In this document: one piece after another, positions 50,447-63,662 of the stretch
Layout: every line of letters starts with the position of its first letter
Position numbering within the stretch: position 1 is the first letter of the stretch
Assembly (NCBI RefSeq): GCF_000712295.1
Contig: NZ_JMKI01000047.1
Location: 62,001-126,000, forward strand
Origin: Synergistes jonesii
Lineage (GTDB): Bacteria; Synergistota; Synergistia; Synergistales; Synergistaceae
Direction: 5' to 3'
Length of the DNA: 64,000 bases
Position numbers and translations under genes: made by a program
Notes under the pieces: generated by a model
Database searches by the model: none
What the model saw: the letters and a program-made list of their open reading frames with translations, nothing else
What the model was told of the DNA's origin: nothing

Positions 50447-50559
50447 TTTTTTAATTGGGCAGATGACGCGTATTCCTCTGCCGCGCCGCGGCGAAGGCCG
50501 TCTTTATGCCCTCTTCCGCGGCCCAGCGAGAAAATAAAAATTTTTACGGAGGTGTTTTC

Positions 50560-51057
50560 ATGGCGGATGAATTGAAGATAGGAATCGTGCAGGTGGATAT
50601 CCCCGAGGATGCCAACGTTATCATCGGGCAGAGCCACTTTATAAAGACGGTCGAGGATCTCTACGAGGCTATGGTGACGTCCGCGCCCTGCATCGAATTC
50701 GGCATTGCATTCTGCGAGGCGTCGGGCGACTGCCTTATTCGCCACGACGGCAACAATAAAGACATGGAGCTCGCGGCGGTAGAGAACGCAAAAAAGATAA
50801 ACGCCGGGCACGTCTTTATAATAGCGATGCGAGGAGGCTACCCGATCAACGTCCTGAGCAGAATCAAGGACGCGCAGGAGGTCTGCCGCATCTTTGCGGC
50901 GACCGCAAACCCATTGCAGCTTGTCGTCGCAGAGAGCGGACAGGGCAGAGGTGTTATGGGGGTCATCGACGGATTTGGGACAAAGGGCGTCGAAGATGAA
51001 AAGGATATGGATTCGCGAGTAAAGCTTCTGCGCGACATCATCGGATATAAAAGGTGA
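50560..51057 (+). CDS. Adenosine-specific kinase-like protein (PF04008)
   Basis: A 165-residue protein of the adenosine-specific kinase family, first described structurally from thermophilic archaea. Typical segments are [20 protein letters not shown]-like ([19 protein letters not shown]), [35 protein letters not shown] and [16 protein letters not shown]. It is small, soluble and of normal length. The ATG at 50560 follows ACGGAGGTG. True activity in bacteria is uncertain. It has its own promoter and is separated by 275 bp from the nitrogenase-like operon, so a functional link is not implied. Confidence 0.88.
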
Positions 51058-51332: not shown

Positions 51333-52088
51333 GTGATAAAGATGGCGATTTACGGCAAGGGCGGCATAGGAAAATCCACCACGGCGTCGAACATTGCGGC
51401 GGCCTTCGCGCAGAACGGCATGCGCGTCATGCAGATAGGCTGCGACCCGAAGGCCGATTCGACCGTGAATCTGCGCGGCGGCGGGAGCGTCCCGACTGTT
51501 CTCGAACTTATAAGGGAGCGCGGCGCGGCGCTGACGCTCGAAGAGCTCGTTACGCCGGGCTTCGCCGGAGTGCTTTGCGTCGAAGCCGGCGGCCCGGCGC
51601 CGGGGCTCGGCTGCGCGGGACGCGGCATCATCGCGGCGATGGAGAAGCTGAAGGAGAAGAGGGCCTTTGAAATTTACAAACCCGACGCGGTGATTTACGA
51701 CGTTTTGGGCGACGTCGTCTGCGGCGGCTTTGCGATGCCGATACGCGAAGGCTACGCGAACAAAGTCTTCGTCGTGACCTCCGGCGAAAACATGGCGCTT
51801 CACGCCGCGGCGAATATCGCGGAGGCCGTCGCGAATTTCCGTTCACGCGGCTACGCGACGCTCGGAGGGATAATTTTGAATCGCCGCAACGTACCGCGCG
51901 AGGAAGAGAAAGTCGCGGAGCTCGCGTCGGACGTCGGTACGAAAATCGTCGGCGCGCTGGATTTCAGCCCGACGGTGCAGCGGGCCGAGGAGATATCGAA
52001 GACGGTGCTCGAAGCCTTTCCCGAGAGCGAAATGGCCGGCGAATACCGCGAGCTCGCCCGCCGTCTCCTCGCGGCTTGCGGTGAATGA
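51333..52088 (+). CDS. NifH-like nitrogenase reductase homolog
   Basis: A 251-residue P-loop iron protein of the NifH/BchL/CfbC type, which passes electrons from a bridging [4Fe-4S] cluster to a partner reductase using ATP. P-loop GKGGIGKST is at 8-16, CDPKADST at 37-44. The two cluster cysteines are Cys94 (GLGCAGRG) and Cys130 ([10 protein letters not shown]), so it should be functional. It is shorter than true NifH (about 275-295). The GTG start has GGGGGG upstream; the ATG at 51342 would leave too little before the P-loop. It overlaps the next gene by eight bases. Confidence 0.9.
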
Positions 52089-53418
52089 GATGATCGACCT
52101 CCACAATCCCGACTGGAGCGGCGCTTCGCTGAAAATCAAAGAAGCGGCCTCTCTCGATCCCTTCGAATACGGCCTTGAATACGGCTCGCCGGCGCGCGGG
52201 CTGTGGAATATCGTGCACACGGGGATGCTGCTGCCTGAGAGCCATCAGATATTCGTATGCGCGCAGGGCTGTCTGCGCGGCGTGGTCCTGACCGCGGCGG
52301 AGATGAACGCGCAGGATAGGTTTTCTACGGTGGCGGTATGCGAGAACAACGTCCTCGACGGCGACATGGAATCTCTTATAATCGACGGCGTCGCCGACGT
52401 CATCCGCAAGCTGCCGCGGAAGCCCAAAGCCGTGCTCGTCTTCACGAGCTGCATCCACAACTTTATGGGCTGCGATCTGAAATACGTTTATTCGCAGCTC
52501 CGCGGACGCTTCCCCGATATTTATTTCACGGACTGCTACATGTATCCGATAATGCGCAAGACGAAGACGCCGCCGGATCCGATGATGCGCATGAGGCTCT
52601 ACAGCTTCCTGCCGAAGTCCGCACATTGCGACGCGGAAAGCGTCAATATCATCGGGAACAACTACCCGACGGAAGACTCCTCCGACTTCGCGCGGATGCT
52701 GCGCGGCGCGGGTTACGAAATACGCGACATCACGCGCTGCCGCAGCTGGGAGGAGTACCGGAAGATGGGTGAAAGCCGACTGAACGTCGGCTATATGCCT
52801 CCCGCGCTTCCGGCGCTGCGCGACCTTAAAGAGCGCCTATGTATGGATTATATTTATATGCCTCTTTCCTATGATTACGAAGAGATAAGGAAGAGTATCC
52901 AGGCTCTATCCGAACGCCTCGATATTCCCGAAATAAACGCCGCGCTGCTAGAAGCCGACGCGGAGCGCGCGCTTGAGGCGGCGAAGCGCCTCCTCCGCGA
53001 TACGCCCGTCGTGCTCGACTACACCGCGACGCCGCGCCCGCTCGGCCTCGCGGAGCTGCTGCTGGATCACGGCTTCAACGTCCGCACCGTTTACGCCGAC
53101 GCGTTCATCGCCGAGGAGCGCCCTGCCTTCGACCGCCTGCGCGAAAAATTTCCCGAGCTTGAGCTGCGCGCGACCGTCCATCCCAAGATGGGGCTGCTGC
53201 CGCGCGCCGCGGCGAATCGCGATGAGAAAGTACTGGCGATCGGACAGAAGGCGGCGTATTTCGAAGACACCACTTACTTCGTGAACATGCTCGAATGCGG
53301 CGGCTATTGGGGTTTCGACGGAATTTTGCGCGTCGCCGAAGAGATATGCGACGCCTTCGTCGAAGAAAAAGATACGAAAAAAATTATACAGGTCAAGGGC
53401 TGGGGGTGCTGCTGTTGA
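52081..53418 (+). CDS. Nitrogenase component 1-like subunit (NifD/E-type)
   Basis: A 445-residue member of the nitrogenase component-1 superfamily (PF00148). Cysteines at 60, 64, 87 and 124/131 ([15 protein letters not shown] and [11 protein letters not shown]) match the places of the cluster ligands in the first domain. The C-terminal domain has [20 protein letters not shown], recalling the cofactor-side segment. The protein ends in an odd GWGCCC. It is too divergent from NifD for nitrogen fixation to be assumed. It overlaps the NifH-like gene by eight bases and the next gene by four. Confidence 0.85.
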
Positions 53419-54551
53419 AACAGACCTGCGCTATTCTGTCGACCTACGCGGCCGACGTTTCCGGCGTCTGCTCGGCGCTCTACGAAATGGGCGGGATGAC
53501 CGTGATGCACGACGCCTCAGGCTGCAATTCGACCTACAACACGCACGACGAGCCGCGCTGGTACGATATGCCGTCGATGGTCTTCATCTCGGCTCTCGCC
53601 GAGGTCGACGCCGTGATGGGCGACGACGAAAAACTCATAGGCGACGTCTGCCGCGCCGCGGAAGAGCTTCGCCCGCGCTTCGTCGCGCTCGCCGGCACGC
53701 CGATCCCGATGATGATGGGAACGGATTTCAAAGGCGTCGCGCGTCTGATAGAAAGCCGCACGGGAATACCGACGTTCGGCTTTGCGACGAACGGGATGCA
53801 CTCCTACAACAAGGGCGCGTCTACGGCGCTGGCCGCCGTCGCGGAGCGTTTCTGCGATCCATCGCTTTCGCGGCGTGAGCTGGCGGCGGAGGAGGCGCCG
53901 GAGGTCAATCTGCTCGGCGTCACGCCTCTTGATTTTTCCGTCACCGGCAACGTCGAAGCGATGAAAAAATCCTTCGTGGACGCCGGCTTTCGCGTCAACA
54001 GCTGTTGGGCGATGGGCGACGGCTGGGAGCGGCTGATGGAGGCCGGAAGGGCTCATGTGAACGTCGTCGTCTCATCGTGCGGCGAAGGGTTGGCGAAGGT
54101 CCTGCGCGAAAAATACGCCATTCCAGCAGTGACGGGAATACCGATCGGCGCGGCCGCGCAGCGGGAGCTATTCGACGCGGCGCGCGCGGCGGCGAGGGAC
54201 GGAAATGACAGAAAAATGCCCGCGCCCGACGCGGAAGGCGCGGAGTTTATCGTCGTAGGCGAGCCGGTGCAAAGCGCCGAGATAGCGCGCGCGCTGCACC
54301 GCGATTTTGGAATCGAAAGCGTCGGCGCGATTTCACCTCTCGATTTTCCCGACGAGGACAAGATATTCGCTCAATTGAAAAACGCTCGCACGGTAATCGC
54401 CGACCCGCTTTACAAGCCGGCCCTGCCTAAGGGCTGCCGCTTCCTTTCTCTGCCCCACGAGGGCTATTCGGGAAGGATTTTCAGGGATCAGATTCCGCTC
54501 ATCATGGGCGGAAATTTTAACGAATGGATTAAAAAGGAGCTTTCTCTATGA
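53415..54551 (+). CDS. Nitrogenase component 1-like subunit (NifK/N-type)
   Basis: A 378-residue second component-1 subunit. N-terminal cysteines 5, 19 and 37 (TCAILS, GVCSAL and DASGCNSTYN) lie where cluster ligands occur, followed by FISALAEVDAVMGDDEKL, a typical superfamily stretch. At the site of the third ligand the sequence reads ALAGTPIPMMMG with no cysteine. It is short for NifK (about 520) and close to the size of BchB- or CfbD-like proteins. The TTG start overlaps the preceding stop (TTGA), and its stop overlaps the binding-protein start (ATGA), so translation is coupled. Confidence 0.83.
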   Translation: MKQTCAILSTYAADVSGVCSALYEMGGMTVMHDASGCNSTYNTHDEPRWYDMPSMVFISALAEVDAVMGDDEKLIGDVCRAAEELRPRFVALAGTPIPMMMGTDFKGVARLIESRTGIPTFGFATNGMHSYNKGASTALAAVAERFCDPSLSRRELAAEEAPEVNLLGVTPLDFSVTGNVEAMKKSFVDAGFRVNSCWAMGDGWERLMEAGRAHVNVVVSSCGEGLAKVLREKYAIPAVTGIPIGAAAQRELFDAARAAARDGNDRKMPAPDAEGAEFIVVGEPVQSAEIARALHRDFGIESVGAISPLDFPDEDKIFAQLKNARTVIADPLYKPALPKGCRFLSLPHEGYSGRIFRDQIPLIMGGNFNEWIKKELSL

Positions 54552-55639
54552 AAAAGTTTATTGCTTTACTTATCTGTGCAGCGCTGTTGACGATTTCGGC
54601 GGGCGCGGAAGCGTCGCACATTATAACGGACCACGCCGGCGACAGCGTCGCCGTGCCGGAAAAGATCGAGCGCATCGCGGTGGCGGGGATACTGCCGTTC
54701 CCGTCGGTGCTCACGGTGTTTTTAGGCTCGGCTGAGAAGCTCGTCGGCATACCGCCTGCGTCGATGGGCGCGGCGAAGGCCGGCCTGCTGGGTGAAATTT
54801 TCCCCGAGATACTGAAGGCTGAGACGAATTTCACGTCTGGGCTCGACCTCAACATCGAAGAGTTGATGCGCCTGCGTCCGGACATAGTCTTTTACCTCGC
54901 CGGCAACAAGGAGATGGGCAGAATGATAAAAAACGCCGGCTTGACCGCCGTGGCGATATCGCCGACTAAATGGGATTACGATGTGATGCGCACGTACGAC
55001 GAATGGATAAAGACGCTGAGCTCCATCTTCCCGGAGAACAAAAAGGCGGAAGCCGCCTCCTCGTACAGCCGGGGCATCTACGGCGACGTGCAGAAGAGGG
55101 TGAAGAACGTTATGCCGGAAGAGCGCAAAAAAGTCCTCTTCCTCTTCCAGTACGACGACAAGCGCATGGTGACGTCGGGGCGCAGCTTCTTCGGGCAATA
55201 CTGGTGCGACGCCATAGGCGCCAAGAATGCGGCCGAGGAGGTGCCGGCGGACAACGCTAACGCCGTCATCACGATGGAGCAGGTATATAGGTGGAATCCC
55301 GACGTGATCTTCATAACGAACTTCACGCCGGCGATGCCGGACGATCTATACAACAACAGGATAGGCGGCGACAACTGGTCCAATGTGGCGGCCGTGAAGA
55401 ACCACGCGGTCTACAAGATGCCTCTCGGCATGTACCGCTCTTACACGCCCGGCGCGGACACGCCGATAACCTTCATGTGGATGGCTCAGAAGGTCTACCC
55501 CGAGCTCTTCGGCAAGATAAACGTGGAGAGGGAGGCCTATTCATATTACAAAAAGATTTTTGGAATCACCCTAACGGACAAACAGCTGAAGGGTATCTTC
55601 AATCAGGGGCGCGCCTCCGCCGAAGGCTTCAGACAGTAG
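54548..55639 (+). CDS. Periplasmic substrate-binding protein of the FepB/BtuF class
   Basis: A 363-residue binding protein (PF01497) with a cleavable signal peptide (about 1-22, ending AEA) and no lipobox cysteine, so it should be free in the periplasm. The two lobes are joined by one long helix, as in cluster A-II receptors for siderophores, heme and cobalamin: IERIAVAGILPFPSVL and IEELMRLRPDIVFYL mark the first lobe, and MEQVYRWNPDVIFITN the second. The ligand cannot be read from sequence. It starts inside the stop of the component-1 gene and is followed by the permease after three bases. Confidence 0.9.
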   Translation: MKKFIALLICAALLTISAGAEASHIITDHAGDSVAVPEKIERIAVAGILPFPSVLTVFLGSAEKLVGIPPASMGAAKAGLLGEIFPEILKAETNFTSGLDLNIEELMRLRPDIVFYLAGNKEMGRMIKNAGLTAVAISPTKWDYDVMRTYDEWIKTLSSIFPENKKAEAASSYSRGIYGDVQKRVKNVMPEERKKVLFLFQYDDKRMVTSGRSFFGQYWCDAIGAKNAAEEVPADNANAVITMEQVYRWNPDVIFITNFTPAMPDDLYNNRIGGDNWSNVAAVKNHAVYKMPLGMYRSYTPGADTPITFMWMAQKVYPELFGKINVEREAYSYYKKIFGITLTDKQLKGIFNQGRASAEGFRQ

Positions 55640-55642
55640 CTG

Positions 55643-56641
55643 ATGCGTGAAAGAACCGCGTTCGCCCTGATAGCCGCCGCGCTTGTAGTTTCTCCCGTAA
55701 CGGCGGTGATGGCGGGCAGATTTCCCCTTTCGGCGCACGATACGATCTCGGCGCTCTGCCCTTGGCTCTGGAGCTCCGAAGCGCCGCAGGTGGTGCGCGA
55801 CGTGGTGCTGAATATACGGCTGCCGCGCGTGCTGCTCGCGATGCTTGCAGGTTCCGGGCTCGGCGTTGCGGGCGGAGCCTTTCAGGCGCTCTTTTCCAAC
55901 CCGCTCGCCACTCCCGATACTCTCGGCGTGGCGACGGGCGCCTCCTTCGGCGCGGCGCTCGGCATTTTGCTCGGGCTTCCGTCGTTCGGCGTGCAGCTCT
56001 GCGCCCTTGCGTCGGGGCTCTTCGCGGTGGCGCTCGTGATGTTCGTCAGCCGCATCCGCGGCTCCTCGTCGGTGATCATGATGATACTTGCCGGCATGGT
56101 GACGAGCGCGCTCTTTTCCGCGCTCGTGTCGCTTGTGAAATACGCCGCGGATCCACAAGACGTTCTGCCTGCCGTGACCTTCTGGCTTATGGGCAGCCTT
56201 TCCGGCACCACGCGCGAAAGCGTGACGCTCGGCGCGCCTCTGATAGTCGCCGGGGTGACGGTGATATGGCTTTACCGCTGGAGGCTCAACGCTATGACCC
56301 TTTCGGAAGACGAGGCCGTTTCCCTGGGAGTAGACGTCAAGAGGACGCGCTTTGCCGTGATAGCGAGCGCGGCGGCGATAACCGCCTCCGTCGTTTCGAT
56401 GTGCGGCCTTATCGGATGGGTGGGGCTGCTTATACCTCACGCTTCGCGCATGGCCTTCGGCAACGACAACAGGCGCGTCGTGCCGGCGAGCGTCGCCTTC
56501 GGCGCGCTCTTCATGCTCGCTATAGACACTGCTGCGAGGAGCTTGACGGCGTCCGAAATACCTGCGTCTATACTGACGGCCGTCATAGGAGCGCCTTTTT
56601 TCATCTTCCTGCTGAGAAAGACGGGGGGAATCAAGGCATGA
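55643..56641 (+). CDS. FecCD-family ABC transporter permease
   Basis: A 332-residue permease with about ten helices, of the family that imports iron chelates, heme or cobalamin. Typical motifs are LPRVLLAMLAGSGLGVAGGA, FQALFSNPLATPDTLGVATG and CGLIGWVGLLIPHASRM, the last forming the contact with the ATPase. It starts three bases after the binding-protein stop and overlaps the ATPase gene by four. A single gene presumably forms a homodimer, as in BtuC. Length and motifs are normal. Confidence 0.93.
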   Translation: MRERTAFALIAAALVVSPVTAVMAGRFPLSAHDTISALCPWLWSSEAPQVVRDVVLNIRLPRVLLAMLAGSGLGVAGGAFQALFSNPLATPDTLGVATGASFGAALGILLGLPSFGVQLCALASGLFAVALVMFVSRIRGSSSVIMMILAGMVTSALFSALVSLVKYAADPQDVLPAVTFWLMGSLSGTTRESVTLGAPLIVAGVTVIWLYRWRLNAMTLSEDEAVSLGVDVKRTRFAVIASAAAITASVVSMCGLIGWVGLLIPHASRMAFGNDNRRVVPASVAFGALFMLAIDTAARSLTASEIPASILTAVIGAPFFIFLLRKTGGIKA

Positions 56642-57732
56642 CGGCCGAAAATACCGCCGCCGAGCCGATGGCCCCCCTTTTTGAAGTCCGCGGCGGCTGC
56701 TTCTCCTACGGCGACGGCGACGTGCTCTGCGATATAAATTTCTGCGTCGGCGAGCCGGATATACTCTGCGTATTAGGCGCGAACGGCGCGGGAAAGACGA
56801 CCCTGCTGAAATGCATGCTCGGCCTGCAGAAGTGGAAGCGCGGCGCCTCCTATCTGAGAGGCAGAAGGGTCGAAAGTATCCGGGCGAAAGAATTTTGGAG
56901 CTCCGTGGGCTACGTCCCTCAGGCGAAGCTCTCCTCCTTCGCCTATACCGTCGGCGAAATGGTGCTGCTTGGAAGGAACTCGCACATCGGCGGACTTTCA
57001 ATGCCGAAGGAGCGCGACAGGGAGGCGGCGCGCGGCGCTATGGAGCTTGCCGGCGTATCGGACCTCTCCGGCAGGCTGTGCAGCAGGATAAGCGGCGGCG
57101 AATATCAGCTTGTGCTGATAGCGCGCGCCCTTGCCGCCGAACCTCGCCTCCTTGTGCTCGACGAGCCGGAGTCGAACCTCGATTTTAAAAATCAAAAGAG
57201 GGTGCTCTCGACGATATCGACGCTCTGCAAGGAGCGCGGTATAGCCGCGATACTTAACACCCATTACCCGGAGCACGCTATGGACATCGCGCAGCGCGCC
57301 CTGCTGCTGCTCCCGGACAGGAGCGCGATATACGGCAGCGCCGCGAACGTGCTGAACGAGGAAAATTTAAAGCGCGCGTTTGAGATCGACGTATACATAC
57401 ACCGCTTCAAGATAGGAGGACGCGCTTACGCGAGCATCCTGCCCGTCGACGGCGAAGAAAAGAGACAGACGGAAAGGCTGAGAGAAATGGAGACAAGGAT
57501 AGCGCAGATAGGAATAATAGTAGAGGACCCGGACGCGGCTGAGAAGATAAACAAGCTGCTGCACGAATACAGCGAATTTATCATAGGGCGCATGGGCATG
57601 CCGTACAGAGAGCGCAACATTTCGATAATAAGCGTGATCATCGACGCGCCGAACGAAAAAATAAGCGCCCTCTCCGGAAAGCTCGGAATGTTTCCAGGGG
57701 TGAGCGCGAAAACGGTTTACTCAAAGCTGTGA
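56638..57732 (+). CDS. FecE-type ABC ATPase fused to a TM1266-like regulator domain
   Basis: Residues 1-260 are an ABC ATPase with Walker A GANGAGKTT (47-55), signature ISGGEYQ (151-157), Walker B LLVLDEPESNLD (171-182) and switch His209. From residue 284 to the end (364) a second domain follows: RIAQIGIIVEDPDAAEKIN, then IIGRMGMPYRERNISIISV and ISALSGKLGMFPGVSAK. This is the pattern of the small TM1266 family, annotated as iron-only hydrogenase system regulator, with a ferredoxin-like ACT/NikR-type fold. The frame is continuous across the junction. Met284 (57487) could be an internal start. Last gene of the operon. Confidence 0.88.
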   Translation: MTAENTAAEPMAPLFEVRGGCFSYGDGDVLCDINFCVGEPDILCVLGANGAGKTTLLKCMLGLQKWKRGASYLRGRRVESIRAKEFWSSVGYVPQAKLSSFAYTVGEMVLLGRNSHIGGLSMPKERDREAARGAMELAGVSDLSGRLCSRISGGEYQLVLIARALAAEPRLLVLDEPESNLDFKNQKRVLSTISTLCKERGIAAILNTHYPEHAMDIAQRALLLLPDRSAIYGSAANVLNEENLKRAFEIDVYIHRFKIGGRAYASILPVDGEEKRQTERLREMETRIAQIGIIVEDPDAAEKINKLLHEYSEFIIGRMGMPYRERNISIISVIIDAPNEKISALSGKLGMFPGVSAKTVYSKL

Positions 57733-57880
57733 TGCGGCGCTTCGTCAGGGCTTGTCGTCACAGCGAGCCCTTCAGCCCGAGCATCATGTCGCCGCCCTCG
57801 AAGAGAAATATCGGCGCGCCCGGCCTCCTCCTCGCGGCAGGGTAGGATGCAGCAGTGGCGAAAAAGCGTTGCACCGCCTA

Positions 57881-57909
57881 TTGTATGGGAGGCGCGCTGC
57901 GGATATACT
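57881..57909 (+). promoter_or_regulatory. Promoter of the metallophosphoesterase gene, apparently leaderless
   Basis: TTGTAT (57881-57886), a 17-bp spacer and TATACT (57904-57909) are followed by the ATG at 57916 after six bases, with no ribosome site. This parallels the rlmD promoter. Confidence 0.6.
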
Positions 57910-57915
57910 ATTGCC

Positions 57916-59055
57916 ATGTTTATGCTGTTTCCGTTCCTTCTTCCTATATACGTGACCCTGAGGCTCCTCCTGCCGCTGCAGCTTTCGGTCCCCGTAAAAA
58001 TCGCCGCTTCCTTTCTACTCTTTGCCGCGGCGCTTAAACAACAGTTCTTCATGCGCTTCGGCGGGGACTTCTTTTCGCCGGAGCTGCCGCAGTGGCTCAT
58101 AGTCGCCTACGGCTGCGCGTTCAGCGCCCTATTTCTGCTCTTTGTCTTCACGCTCTGCAAGGATGTCTTTCAAATCGTGGCTTTGTCCGCGAGATTCTTC
58201 TTTCCGCGGCTGCCGCGTTTTTCTCCGACCTCCCGCGCGGCGGCGGCAATCTCCGCGCTCTCCCTGCTGCTCGCCGTCTACGGTGCTTACGAAGCGCAGC
58301 GTCTGCCGCGAGTCGTGGAGATAAAAATTCCACTAGCGAATCTGCCGCCGGAATTTGAAAACTTCAAAATCGCTCTGCTCTGCGACCTGCATATAAGCGC
58401 GTCGCGGCGCGCGGATTTTGCGCGCGCCGTCTCCGAGAGGACGAACGCACTGTCGCCCGACCTGATACTGATCGCGGGGGATTTTATCGACGGCGCGAGA
58501 GAAGTCAGAAGCGGAGACGTCCTTCCCCTCGCTGCGCTGCGCGCGCCGTGCGGAGTCTTGGGAATCCTTGGCAACCACGAATATTATTTTGGGCCAGACG
58601 AATGGATGAGCTTTTTCGAAGAAGAGCTCGGCATAAAAATGCTGCTGAACGCGCATGCGCTGATTTCGCGCGGCAACGCGGAAATCGCCGTCGCCGGCCT
58701 GGCGGACGAAGTGGCGCGCCGTTTTTCCGGCCGCGAGCCTCCGGATGTGAAGAAAGCCCTTTGGGGAATCCCTGCCGGTGTTCCGATAATACTTTTAGAC
58801 CATCGGCCCGGGGCCGCGAAGAGAAACGCCGCGGCGGGCGCGGACTTGCAGCTCTCGGGGCACACGCACGGCGGTATGGCTCCCTTTCTGTCGCCCATAG
58901 TGAAAAAATTCAACGGCGGCTACCTGCGCGGCCTCTACCGCGTCGGCGCGATGAAGCTCTACGTCTCTCCCGGCACGGGCATATGGAACGGCTTTCTGCT
59001 GCGCCTCTTCGATCCTTCCGAGATAACCGTGATACTGCTTACGGCGTTGAAGTGA
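57916..59055 (+). CDS. Membrane-associated metallophosphoesterase (YaeI/YkuE type)
   Basis: About 379 residues, with four or five hydrophobic helices in the first 130 and then a calcineurin-like phosphoesterase domain. Metal-ligand motifs are all present: LLCDLHIS, AGDFIDG, GNHEYYFG and SGHTHGG. Related proteins hydrolyse lipid A precursors or act on other phosphodiesters at the membrane. The start is uncertain: an in-frame ATG at 57847 would add 23 residues, but a good promoter lies across that stretch, so I prefer 57916. It stands apart from the preceding ABC operon. Confidence 0.83.
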   Translation: MFMLFPFLLPIYVTLRLLLPLQLSVPVKIAASFLLFAAALKQQFFMRFGGDFFSPELPQWLIVAYGCAFSALFLLFVFTLCKDVFQIVALSARFFFPRLPRFSPTSRAAAAISALSLLLAVYGAYEAQRLPRVVEIKIPLANLPPEFENFKIALLCDLHISASRRADFARAVSERTNALSPDLILIAGDFIDGAREVRSGDVLPLAALRAPCGVLGILGNHEYYFGPDEWMSFFEEELGIKMLLNAHALISRGNAEIAVAGLADEVARRFSGREPPDVKKALWGIPAGVPIILLDHRPGAAKRNAAAGADLQLSGHTHGGMAPFLSPIVKKFNGGYLRGLYRVGAMKLYVSPGTGIWNGFLLRLFDPSEITVILLTALK

Positions 59056-59257
59056 TTCCCTGCCGTGAAAATTTCCGGCGCATAAAAGACAGATAATCTA
59101 CCGGCCGCGCTGTCGGAATACTCCGCGTTCGTCGCGCTAAACGGCAAATGTCAGATGCGCGCGGGCACTTTCTGGATGTAAAATATCAGAGGCGGCCGCG
59201 GGCTGTCGTTTTGCGACGGCCGAATCCTTTTGGCGGCGAGGCATTGGAGTGAGCGAT

Positions 59258-60103
59258 ATGGTCGGCGTTGTTGATGTTGGAGGAGGTATGCGCGCGGTGT
59301 ACGGCGCTGGCGTCTTTGATTACTGTCTGGATCGCGGCATCCGCTTCGATTACGGCATCGGCGTCTCAGCCGGAGGCGCGAACATAATATCTTACCTTGC
59401 GGGACAGAGGGGGCGGAATTACCGTTTTTACACGGAGTATTCGCTTCGGAAGGAATACATGGGCGTCGGACGCTTTCTGAAGACGGGAAATTATATCGAC
59501 CTCGATTACATCTACGGAACTCTGACGAATTCCGACGGCGAGGACCCCCTCGATTACGACGCCGTGATGAACTCGGATATCGATATGTGCATCGTCGCGA
59601 CGGACGCGGAGAGCGGGGAAGCCGTCTATTACGCCAAAAAAGATTATAAGAGGGACGACTACGGGATGATCAAAGGCTCCTGCTGCGTCCCGATCGCCGA
59701 CAGGCCGTACCGTTACCGCGGAAGGCTGCTCTACGACGGCGGGCTGAGCGATCCTATCCCGCTCGAAAAGGCGCTTGCCGAAGGGTGCGACAGGGTCGTC
59801 GTCATCCTGACGAGGCCGAGGGATTACGCCGAGAGGGAGACTCTCATCTCTTTTCTCATAAGAAAAAAATATCCTAAAGCGGCAAAGGGGCTTTCGATGC
59901 GCGCGAAACGCTACAACGCACAGCTCGCGCTCTGCAAAAGATACGAAAGCGAAGGCAGAGTCCTCATCGTTGCGCCGGATGACATAGGACGTGTGAGGAT
60001 GTTGTCGAAAAACAGGAACGCGGGAAAATATCTGTACGAAAAAGGATATCGCGACGCCGAAGCGATATCGCGCTTTTTAAAAAGGGGCAGAGGACGCAAA
60101 TAA
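59258..60103 (+). CDS. Patatin-like phospholipase
   Basis: A 281-residue patatin-fold hydrolase. The oxyanion loop is VGGGMRAVYGAGVFD, the nucleophile serine lies in GVSAGGAN (about 39-46) and the catalytic aspartate in YDGGLSDPIP (about 163-172), so the Ser-Asp dyad is complete. The small size and C-terminus resemble YjjU-type bacterial patatins. It is cytosolic or peripheral and probably hydrolyses phospholipids or other acyl esters. The ATG at 59258 has GGAG eight bases upstream; a GTG at 59249 lies too close to that site. Confidence 0.9.
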   Translation: MVGVVDVGGGMRAVYGAGVFDYCLDRGIRFDYGIGVSAGGANIISYLAGQRGRNYRFYTEYSLRKEYMGVGRFLKTGNYIDLDYIYGTLTNSDGEDPLDYDAVMNSDIDMCIVATDAESGEAVYYAKKDYKRDDYGMIKGSCCVPIADRPYRYRGRLLYDGGLSDPIPLEKALAEGCDRVVVILTRPRDYAERETLISFLIRKKYPKAAKGLSMRAKRYNAQLALCKRYESEGRVLIVAPDDIGRVRMLSKNRNAGKYLYEKGYRDAEAISRFLKRGRGRK

Positions 60104-60320
60104 AGCGCCTTGCCGGCTCGCCGACGGAATGCTGTTTAATCTATGAAATTTCAGGTCAAGATATCATCGTCGAGCGAACTGCGCCTCGAAATAAAAAAAC
60201 GGCGGTGCGGTTGAGACCCATGGAAAAAATTTTCGCGATGCGGGTGTGAAATGCCGTCACTTATGTTAAAATGCTATGGTTGAACGTAGGGCGTTGGAAT
60301 ATTTGAAAGGGGAAAATAAA

Positions 60321-61679
60321 TTGAAGACAGAGATACTTTCGCAAGAGAAGGAAATAGTTGAAGCTAAAGCGCAGTTCACCGCCGAAGAGATCGCAAAGGC
60401 GATCGACGAGACTTACAAAAAAATTTCAAGAGAGGCCAACATTAAGGGTTTTCGCAAGGGCAAGGTGCCGCGCAGGGCTATAGAGCTCTATTTCCCGAAG
60501 GAGACGGTGCTGGCCGAGACGCTTGAAAAAATCATTCCGGACGCCGTTGACAAAATGGTCGAAGAGTTCGAGCTGAAGCTCATCGGAGAGCCGGAGCTGA
60601 AGCCGGAGAAAATAGAAGAAGGCAAGGGTTACGAGTTCACGGTCAAATTCGAAGTGACACCGGATATAGAGCTTCCCGACATCTCCGAGATAGAGATCGA
60701 AAAGCCGATATACGAGACGACGCCGGAGATGGTGCAGGCCAGGATGGATAGTATAATCGACGCCTACAGCGAGTTGGTCCCGACCTACGAAGAGCGCCCG
60801 CTTACAAAGGAGGACTATGCCTCCGTGAAGTTCGACACGATAGTATGCCATGAGGATGGCAGCGAGGAAAAGGCCGAAGAGGGGCGGAAGACGGAGATTT
60901 TCCTCGGAGCTCCGAACTCGCGCCCCGAAGTGGTAGACGCCATAGTCGGCAGAAAGCCCGGAGAAAAAGTATCGGTCGAGCTTCCCCTATCGGGCGAAGA
61001 TGCGAAGACGGATCATGCGCTGAAGAGCCGTCATGAGATAGAGATACTCGGCATAATGAAGAAGAAGGACGACGAACTGACCGACGAAAAGGTGAAGGAA
61101 ATCACCGGCAAAAGAATCGGCAGCATCGACGAATTCAGGGCCGAGATCGAGAAGCACCTTAAGGAAGCCGGCGAGGCGCGCAGCGCGGAGGCCATGAAGG
61201 ACAACGCGCTCTTCGCGCTCTGCGACAAGATAGAGGTCGAGCTGCCGCAGAAGCTCGTCGAGCGCCAAAAGGCCGCGATGAAGAAGCAGCAGGAGGAGCG
61301 TCTCAAGGGAGACGACAAGACGTCGTTCGACGAGTACCTCGAGAAGAACGGAATGGACAGGGAAGTCTACGATACGGAGCTCGACGCTGCGGCGAGAAAC
61401 ATAGTGAAGCAGGCGCTCGTCCTTGAAGCCGTGGCCGATGAAAACGACATCCAATGCACGCCGGACGACCTTTCTAAGGAGATCGCGTCCGTTGCAAGGC
61501 GAATCGGAGTCGAGGAGAAGAAGTTCCAGGAATACGTCTACGGAGACGCCAACCGCCTTTACAACATAGCTGACAAGCTCCGCCACCGCAAGACGCTCGA
61601 CTATCTCGTCTCTGCAATGAAGGTCAAGGAAAGCGCGCCGGAAAAAGAGGAAAAGGCGGAGGAAAAAGAGGGGGAATAG
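60321..61679 (+). CDS. tig: Trigger factor
   Basis: Trigger factor is the ribosome-bound chaperone that meets nascent chains. The 452-residue product has the N-terminal ribosome-binding domain with the loop GFRKGKVPRR (signature GFRxGKxP), a central FKBP-like prolyl isomerase domain (about 145-235) and a helical C-terminal domain. The tail is rich in Glu and Lys. The TTG at 60321 follows AAAGGGG by about seven bases and gives the normal N-terminus; an ATG at 60276 would add 15 residues. It is first of tig-clpP-clpX-lon. Confidence 0.95.
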   Translation: MKTEILSQEKEIVEAKAQFTAEEIAKAIDETYKKISREANIKGFRKGKVPRRAIELYFPKETVLAETLEKIIPDAVDKMVEEFELKLIGEPELKPEKIEEGKGYEFTVKFEVTPDIELPDISEIEIEKPIYETTPEMVQARMDSIIDAYSELVPTYEERPLTKEDYASVKFDTIVCHEDGSEEKAEEGRKTEIFLGAPNSRPEVVDAIVGRKPGEKVSVELPLSGEDAKTDHALKSRHEIEILGIMKKKDDELTDEKVKEITGKRIGSIDEFRAEIEKHLKEAGEARSAEAMKDNALFALCDKIEVELPQKLVERQKAAMKKQQEERLKGDDKTSFDEYLEKNGMDREVYDTELDAAARNIVKQALVLEAVADENDIQCTPDDLSKEIASVARRIGVEEKKFQEYVYGDANRLYNIADKLRHRKTLDYLVSAMKVKESAPEKEEKAEEKEGE

Positions 61680-61682
61680 CTT

Positions 61683-62267
61683 ATGAGTTATTACATTCCA
61701 TTCGTTGTCGAGCAATCCGGGCGCGGCGAACGCTCCTATGACATTTACAGCCGTCTGCTGAAGGATAGGATAGTATTCCTCGGGACGGAGATCGACGATT
61801 CAGTGGCGAACGTCGTTGTCGCTCAGCTTCTCTTCCTTGAGAGCGAGGACCCGGACAAAGACATTTCACTTTATATAAACAGTCCGGGCGGCTCCGTTTC
61901 GGCCGGGCTCGCCATATACGACACGATGCAGTACATTCACCCCAACGTCTCGACCATATGCCTCGGCATGGCGGCGAGCATGGGTGCGGTGCTGCTGACG
62001 GCCGGCGCGTCCGGGAAGCGCTTCGCGCTGCCGAATGCGAAGATAATGATTCATCAGCCGATGGGCGGCATGCAGGGGCAGGCCTCTGACATAGAAATAC
62101 ACGCGAAAGAGATAGTCAAAACGCGCGAAACTCTGAACAAAATACTTGCAAAACACACAGGACAGCCGCTCGAGAAGATAACGACGGACACCGACAGGGA
62201 TTATTATATGACGGCCGAGGAGGCTCTTTCCTATGGCCTTGTCGATAAGATAATCGAAAAAAGATAA
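61683..62267 (+). CDS. clpP: ATP-dependent Clp protease proteolytic subunit ClpP
   Basis: ClpP is the serine protease ring that degrades proteins unfolded by ClpX. The 194-residue protein carries the catalytic triad in the normal order: Ser in GMAASMGAV (about residue 98), His in MIHQPMGG (about 123) and Asp in TDTDRDYYM (about 172). The N-terminus [19 protein letters not shown] is typical. It starts three bases after the tig stop, with clpX next, in the widespread tig-clpPX order. Confidence 0.98.
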
Positions 62268-62277
62268 CACATCTCAC

Positions 62278-62303
62278 GAGGGGATTCCTGCGGGAATCTC
62301 CTC
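62278..62303 (+). other. Hairpin between clpP and clpX
   Basis: An 11-bp stem, GAGGGGATTCC (62278-62288) against GGAATCTCCTC (62293-62303), lies between the two genes. It is followed only by ATTTATG, so it is more likely a partial terminator or message-processing element than a full stop. Confidence 0.6.
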
Positions 62304-62324
62304 ATTTATGCAAGAGGTGCTTTC

Positions 62325-63662
62325 ATGGCTATGGACAAGAACAACGATACAAAAGAGGCGGCAAGGGAAAGGGCTAAGAGCAGAAGGGGGCGCTGCTCCT
62401 TCTGCGGGAAGTCGCAGGACGAAGTTCCGAGGCTTTTCGCTGCTCCGCAGTCCAACGTTTACATCTGCTCAGACTGCGTACAGATATGCAACATGATGAT
62501 GAGGGACAGCATGCCTCAGATGACTTACGAGTCTCCGCGCTATGATTCCGCCGGCTCCCCGGCTTCGCTTCCGGCTCTCGACGAGCTCCCCAAACCGCAT
62601 GAGATAAAGGAGTACCTCGATCAGTACGTGATAGGGCAAAACCAGGCTAAGAAGGTCCTCTCTGTCGCCGTGTATAACCATTACAAGAGGATAATGAATC
62701 CGGCCGATGAAAGCGACGACGTAGAGCTGCCGAAGTGCAACGTGCTGCTCGTCGGTCCTACTGGGAGCGGAAAGACTCTGCTCGCGCAGACCCTCGCGAA
62801 GCGCCTCAGCGTGCCCTTCGCGATGACGGACGCGACTACGCTTACCGAAGCCGGCTATGTCGGTGAAGACGTAGAGAATATTCTACTGCGCCTCCTTCAG
62901 GCGGCCGATTTTGACATTCAGGCCGCGGAGCGCGGCATAATATATATCGATGAAATAGATAAAATCGCGCGCAAATCGGAATCCACCTCAATAACGCGCG
63001 ATGTTTCCGGCGAAGGAGTGCAGCAGGCGCTGCTGAAGATAATAGAGGGCACCGTCGCCAACATTCCGCCGAAGGGCGGGCGCAAGCACCCGGCGCAGGA
63101 GACGATCCCCATGGATACTCACAACATCCTCTTCATCTGCGGCGGAGCTTTCGACGGGCTCGACAAGATCATCGCGCAGCGCACGAGCGAAAAACAGCTC
63201 GGCTTCGGCTCGGAGATAAAATCCAAAAGCGTGGGCGGCGATACGAACGAGCTGCTTAGAAAGCTCGAACCGGACGATCTCCGTGCCTTCGGCTTCATAC
63301 CGGAGTTTATCGGCCGCCTTCCCGTTCTCGTCGCGCTCGACGCGCTTTCCGACGAGGACCTGATACGCATACTCAAGGAGCCGAGGAACGCACCGCTCAA
63401 GCAGTATAAGAAGCTCTTCTCGCTCGAGGATATAGACCTCGAATTTACGGACGACGCGGTTAAGACGATCGCGCAGAAAGCGGTCAAGCTGAACACCGGC
63501 GCGCGCGGCCTGCGCACGATCCTCGAAAAGCTCATGCTCGACCTGCAATACGAAATTCCCAATAAAGCGACGAATATCAAATCTCTTACGGTTACTAAGG
63601 AGTCAGTCGAAGGTACCGAAAAACCTATAATGGAGAGTGCTTCGCGTGCCAGTTCAGAGTGA
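62325..63662 (+). CDS. clpX: ATP-dependent Clp protease ATP-binding subunit ClpX
   Basis: ClpX is the AAA+ unfoldase that feeds ClpP. The 445-residue protein has an N-terminal zinc-binding domain with CSFCGKS and CSDCVQIC, Walker A GPTGSGKT (about 146-153), Walker [12 protein letters not shown] and the ClpP-contact IGF-type loop (LGFGSE region). The sensor arginine segment and C-terminal domain are intact. AGAGGTG provides the ribosome site. Its last 17 bases overlap the start of lon. Confidence 0.97.

Follow-up and report, generated by a model that had tools for sequence, protein, structure and literature searches.

An ABC importer ATPase encoded in the window (the whole 64,000-nucleotide stretch of Synergistes jonesii DNA analysed here) continues in frame into a C-terminal TM1266 domain, and this fusion is confirmed as real. 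At a probability of roughly 55%, we favour the reading that the TM1266 domain is a regulatory add-on of a type II importer feeding [FeFe]-hydrogenase cofactor assembly, that it probably works by trans-inhibition, and that free TM1266 is also made. To our knowledge, the function of the TM1266 family is not known and TM1266 has no known ligand site; a literature search found no description of a TM1266 function, nor of an operon that combines nitrogenase-like genes with HydE. The fusion suggests a type II importer under regulation and provides a handle on a possible role for TM1266.

A TM1266 domain on an importer ATPase

The plus-strand reading frame at 56638-57732 contains no stop between the ATPase and TM1266 parts, and its start overlaps the stop of the FecCD permease gene by 4 bases (Table 1). 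The ATPase has the features expected of a type II ABC importer (BtuD/FhuC/HmuV/MolC type): Walker A, signature and H-loop are present, and a FecCD permease and a binding protein are encoded in the same operon. In a profile search ABC_tran matched residues 32-177, and the closest solved nucleotide-binding domain (NBD) is that of the type II importer 2nq2 (HI1470).

Table 1. Features of the operon and of related loci. Positions are those of the window unless a contig or genome is given.
Feature	Position	Strand	Details
NifH-like iron protein	51333..52088	+	both cluster cysteines; start GTG 51333 or ATG 51342
nifX1, nitrogenase-like component 1 subunit	52081..53418	+	
nifX2, nitrogenase-like component 1 subunit	53376..54551	+	NifE/BchB-like; exact start not fixed
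Periplasmic binding protein of importer (Peripla_BP_2)	54548..55639	+	closest solved 4ovk
FecCD-type permease of importer	55643..56641	+	PF01032, 284 bits
ABC importer ATPase with C-terminal TM1266 domain	56638..57732	+	364 aa
ATPase (NBD) part	56677..57423	+	residues about 14-262; Walker A GANGAGKTT, signature SGGEYQ, H-loop NTHYPEH
Linker	57424..57486	+	residues 263-283
Shine-Dalgarno-like GGAAAGG	57471..57477	+	ends with the AGG codon of Arg280; spaced 9 bases from internal ATG
TM1266 domain	57487..57732	+	residues 284-364; conserved internal ATG
HypF-HypD-HypE locus with TM1266 and/or HydE, HydA genome (L134)	G480:C38, 820-13150		
Same (L135/L136)	G398:C58		
Same (L077)	G139		
Same (L079/L159)	G140		

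The preliminary description had assigned residues 284-364 to the TM1266 family and to an ACT/NikR-type fold, and both assignments hold. Residues 287-359 cover the whole PF21699 model (E = 7e-33, 112.9 bits against a cut-off of 27), and the domain scored 113.5 bits against TIGR03959 (cut-off 60.8). When the PDB was searched by sequence with the domain, the best match was TM1266 itself (2nzc, E = 4e-16), with no other significant solved relative. An AlphaFold model of residues 281-364 (pLDDT 94) has the order beta-alpha-beta-beta-alpha-beta and superposes on 2nzc with a TM score of 0.90 and an rmsd of 1.0 Å; the NikR C-terminal domains rank next in the fold comparison (TM up to about 0.85). The full-length model of the fused protein was weak in the C-terminal part.

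Likeness to NikR does not extend to nickel. In the window the TM1266 domain contains a single His and lacks Cys altogether. The NikR nickel site is therefore missing, which makes nickel sensing as in NikR unlikely; a profile search found no ribbon-helix-helix DNA-binding domain in the protein. The allosteric control of import suggested in the preliminary description is plausible. A second, stand-alone TM1266 gene lies beside hydF in the same genome, and the fused copy is thus an extra one.

The upstream genes of the operon are separated by short overlaps or gaps. Both cluster cysteines of the NifH-like protein are retained in 25 of 25 relatives, and the protein reaches 324 bits against the nifH model (cut-off 394). 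No NCBIfam model matched nifX1, and nifX2 is far under the NCBIfam cut-offs, so that none of the three reaches the cut-off of any named nitrogenase or nitrogenase-like enzyme that has an NCBIfam model. An adenosine-specific-kinase-like gene (50506-51057) precedes the operon; it is followed, at 57847-63662, by unrelated neighbours, namely a metallophosphoesterase gene, a patatin-like gene, trigger factor, clpP and clpX (all these names by recognition from sequence).

Conservation, history and internal start of the fusion

The in-frame fusion is found in eight Synergistaceae species (the window's genome, G137, G138, G167, G168, G170, G171 and G172). The uninterrupted frame described for the window is therefore shared by seven further species, which rules out an assembly or frameshift artefact, or chance. 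Across these seven, identity to the window is 85-93% in the TM1266 part and 68-76% in the ATPase part. Candidatus Merdivicinus (L007, Bacillota) has TM1266 as a gene of its own, which lies 17 bases past the ATPase stop, is preceded by a ribosome site, AGGAG, and starts METRIA, equivalent to Met284-Ala289 of the window protein. ATPase and TM1266 are also separate, with hydF in between, in L121, L122 and L161, while seven Bacillota loci (L123-L129) carry a different fused TM1266 on the ATPase of this operon.

The split loci fall together with the fusions of Synergistaceae in the ATPase tree (95/100), which rejected a single clade for all fusions (p-AU 0.0003). The two fused groups are separate in the domain tree (100/99 and 97/96), although this short tree (83 columns) did not reject a single fused group (p-AU 0.30). 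The simplest reading of these trees would be two independent fusions, one in Synergistaceae and one in Bacillota; a single fusion that was later split is possible. Related operons without any TM1266 were found at L089, L093 and L094. The distance from the first of these (G114:C1:178000-195000) to hydA, hydE and hydF is no more than about 25 kb, and the genome that holds it also has HydG. The Synergistaceae genera g11/g12 have more distant relatives of TM1266 (L083-L088, L091 and L092), with about 32-36% identity in those measured; in L087 and L088 they lie directly before hydG.

As the preliminary description had noted, an ATG lies within the frame at 57487-57489, where it encodes Met284. Seven distinct Synergistaceae fusions retain this Met, and in each the ATG is preceded, at a distance of nine bases, by a run of purine-rich sequence whose last bases are AGG. 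Arg280 is the sole invariant residue of linker positions 272-283, and its codon is AGG in 7/7 fusions although AGG accounts for 33 of the 175 Arg codons in these genes, a count that is suggestive and not a clean probability, as the seven fusions are related by descent. The split orthologues starting at the equivalent Met and the conserved Shine-Dalgarno-like AGG support, at the level of sequence, the earlier idea that the domain may also be produced separately. Most Bacillota fusions have no internal Met, and the one Met present is unlike a start; a separate TM1266 gene is found in the operon at six of these seven fused loci. Almost all versions of the operon thus seem to come with free TM1266.

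Hydrogenase-maturation genes in related operons and genomes

HydE and HydF are not encoded in the window's operon. In L007 and G169, HydE (TIGR03956, cut-off 254.6) is encoded directly upstream of nifH, with scores of 539 and 497 bits. Three sets of Bacillota loci (L121, L122, and L120 with L161) have the order hydE-nifH-X1-X2-pbp-fecCD-abc-hydF-TM1266. The order in L123-L125, also from Bacillota, is TM1266-fecCD-ABC~TM1266-hydE-nifH-X1-X2-pbp; L127-L129 are variants of this order with no hydE in the operon, and L126 is a variant without free TM1266 and with hydF. TM1266 genes lie beside hydE, hydF, hydG or nifH-like genes in many loci. The preliminary description had tied the nitrogenase-like system to hydrogenase metabolism, and HydE, HydF and free TM1266 in the sister operons make that link stronger than could be seen from the window.

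To examine the maturation genes at the level of genomes, carriers were defined by a nifX1 match below 1e-100, which gave 13 carriers in a sample of 394 genomes (order of G188, Bacillota). HydE and HydF are present in 13/13 carriers and [FeFe]-hydrogenase HydA is above cut-off in 10/13, while HydG is found in 0/13 compared to 153/394 overall (Fisher p = 0.002). HydG-model matches of 172 bits occur in carriers G225, G289, G342, G188 and G480. A hidden, divergent HydG was rejected for the first three, whose 417-aa proteins do not have the C-terminal C-x2-C-x22-C motif of HydG and are most likely ThiH.

The absence of HydG was dropped as a simple marker. HydE was found in only 3/60 non-carriers with HydA and without HydG, which are thus mostly genomes simply without maturation genes (57/60 also have no HydE, and HydF is also absent in 4/4 tested). 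HydG absence on its own is therefore hardly informative; the operon goes together with the combination of HydE present and HydG missing, in a comparison that is partly circular where hydE sits in the operon and whose carriers are not independent samples, several being metagenome assemblies. Across all 394 genomes, HydA was found in 334 and HydG in only 153; together with the sampled non-carriers, these counts mean that hydrogenase-like proteins occur without known maturases. HydE was found with neither HydG nor the operon at L138 (G298), L139 (G282) and L137 (G227), as would arise from missing assembly or another route; it lies beside TM1266 in two of these three genomes, and also near HydF in one.

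Within Synergistaceae, four genomes that are 93-100% complete (G170, G172, G139 and G140) have HydA, HydE and HydF, and HydG was not found in them. HydG is above cut-off in the window's genome (G000), where its C-terminal C-x2-C-x22-C motif is intact, and in G137, G138, G167 and G171, so replacement of HydG cannot be general.

HypF, HypD and HypE, which are otherwise [NiFe]-hydrogenase factors, follow a further nitrogenase-like set in four HydG-less genomes, two from Bacillota (G480 and G398) and two from Synergistaceae (G139 and G140; Table 1). HypF of G480, HypD of G480, G398 and G139, and HypE of G480 and G398 are above cut-offs; HypE of G139 was detected by search only, and the other Hyp proteins of these genomes were assigned by similarity. 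The second set is preceded by TM1266 in G480, G139 and G140, and by hydE in G480. In G398 the run continues into nifX1-nifX2-hydF, with hydE about 1.4 kb further on. A concatenated query of E. coli HyaB/HycE found no [NiFe] large subunit in the four genomes at 1e-20, a search that could miss distant types; the same query matches G486, G412, G108, G111, G114, G118 and G119. No importer gene follows nifX2 in G398, nor in the 820 bases left in G480, and HypFDE with the second set may therefore, to judge from these few genomes, make internally what the importer otherwise supplies.

Proposed role and comparison with known systems

In the accepted model of H-cluster assembly, CO and cyanide are made from tyrosine by HydG. 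HydG yields [Fe(Cys)(CO)2(CN)]-, which HydE converts into a dinuclear complex; completion and delivery are the task of HydF (PMC11736057). Carriers that have HydE and HydF and are missing HydG need another source of the CO/CN ligands. We infer that the BtuCD/FecCD-type (type II) importer would bring in an H-cluster precursor, which the nitrogenase-like, ATP-dependent reductase would process and hand to HydE and HydF. Genomes without HydG would obtain their CO/CN ligands, or an Fe-CO-CN synthon, from this supply in its place; the window's genome has HydG, and there the operon would provide a second supply, which is regulated. The TM1266 domains would most likely pair across the two ATPases of the dimer. 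By binding a cytoplasmic pathway ligand they would keep the ATPases apart once its pool is filled. Such trans-inhibition by C-terminal domains of an importer ATPase has precedents in MetNI and ModABC (PMC10710835). The internal start would yield free TM1266 to act on the rest of the pathway.

We put forward more tentatively a HydG-independent route to the H-cluster, in which a nitrogenase-like reductase would work with HydE, HydF and TM1266 on a CO/CN-bearing iron precursor that is either imported by ABC~TM1266 or made by HypF-HypD-HypE and the second nitrogenase-like set. If true, this would be a new kind of pathway. The operon would fill the H-cluster gap with an importer and a nitrogenase-like reductase, joined in four genomes by HypDEF, and thereby names genes for deletion.

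Other roles for the domain have to be weighed. TM1266 could be a docking module and not a sensor, one that holds HydE, HydF or the NifH-like protein at the importer for direct transfer of a labile or toxic precursor. The maturation and nifH-like genes that adjoin TM1266 in many loci fit such a tether, as does the conservation of the domain over that of the ATPase, which is expected for a partner-facing surface, and the domain has no obvious metal site. However, NikR/ACT-fold domains usually bind small ligands at dimer interfaces, and we regard docking as unlikely, if still worth serious attention. A somewhat less probable alternative is that the importer carries a metal, an oxyanion (molybdate/tungstate), a siderophore or haem for the nitrogenase-like enzyme, that the product of this enzyme is not an H-cluster part, and that TM1266 is a recruited general sensor. 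HI_1472 (3psa), one of the closest binding proteins, pairs with the closest solved ATPase, HI1470, in a type II importer known for molybdate/tungstate; haem or siderophore models, IsdE included, give weak matches too, and plain operons without TM1266 exist. Against this stand the Bacillota operons, with their HydE, HydF and free TM1266 in carriers without HydG.

It is very improbable that the fusion is a near-neutral loss of a stop codon, with free TM1266 from the internal start as the working product and the attached copy idle. The split orthologue that begins at the same Met, the AGG codon of Arg280 and the invariably kept Met284 would all be expected in that case, but the fusion has been retained in eight species. 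Moreover, most members of the second fused group lack an internal start, and a separate TM1266 gene accompanies them, which suggests that the attached copy is retained in its own right.

The favoured reading, that of a regulated type II importer serving hydrogenase cofactor assembly, can be set against several known systems. Like NifHDK, DPOR, CfbCD, MarHDK and NflHDK, the operon combines two component-1 subunits with a NifH-like ATPase that keeps both cluster cysteines; its proteins differ in falling below the curated cut-offs (for those enzymes with an NCBIfam model) and in their gene neighbours. HydEFG maturation is shared in part, as the Bacillota operons come with HydE, HydF and TM1266, whereas those genomes have no HydG, and the nitrogenase-like enzyme with the importer, or HypF-HypD-HypE, sits with HydE/HydF instead. 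The predicted fold is that of the NikR C-terminal domain, although the window protein has neither the DNA-binding domain nor the nickel ligands of NikR. With the TM1266 family it shares scores above curated cut-offs, the fold and, in its relatives, the company of hydrogenase-maturation genes; this last trait is absent in the window and present in orthologous operons and at the second copy in the same genome. Known members of the family are stand-alone, in contrast to the window copy, which is fused to an importer ATPase in a nitrogenase-like operon. MetN (C2/NIL domain) and ModC also have a small regulatory domain at the ATPase C-terminus, and that of MetN is also ferredoxin-like, but the likeness is one of architecture only: they belong to type I importers with methionine or molybdate as ligands, whereas the window protein is of the BtuCD/FecCD type and carries an unrelated domain. 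The window protein would thus be a new form of C-terminally regulated importer ATPase, a kind known already.
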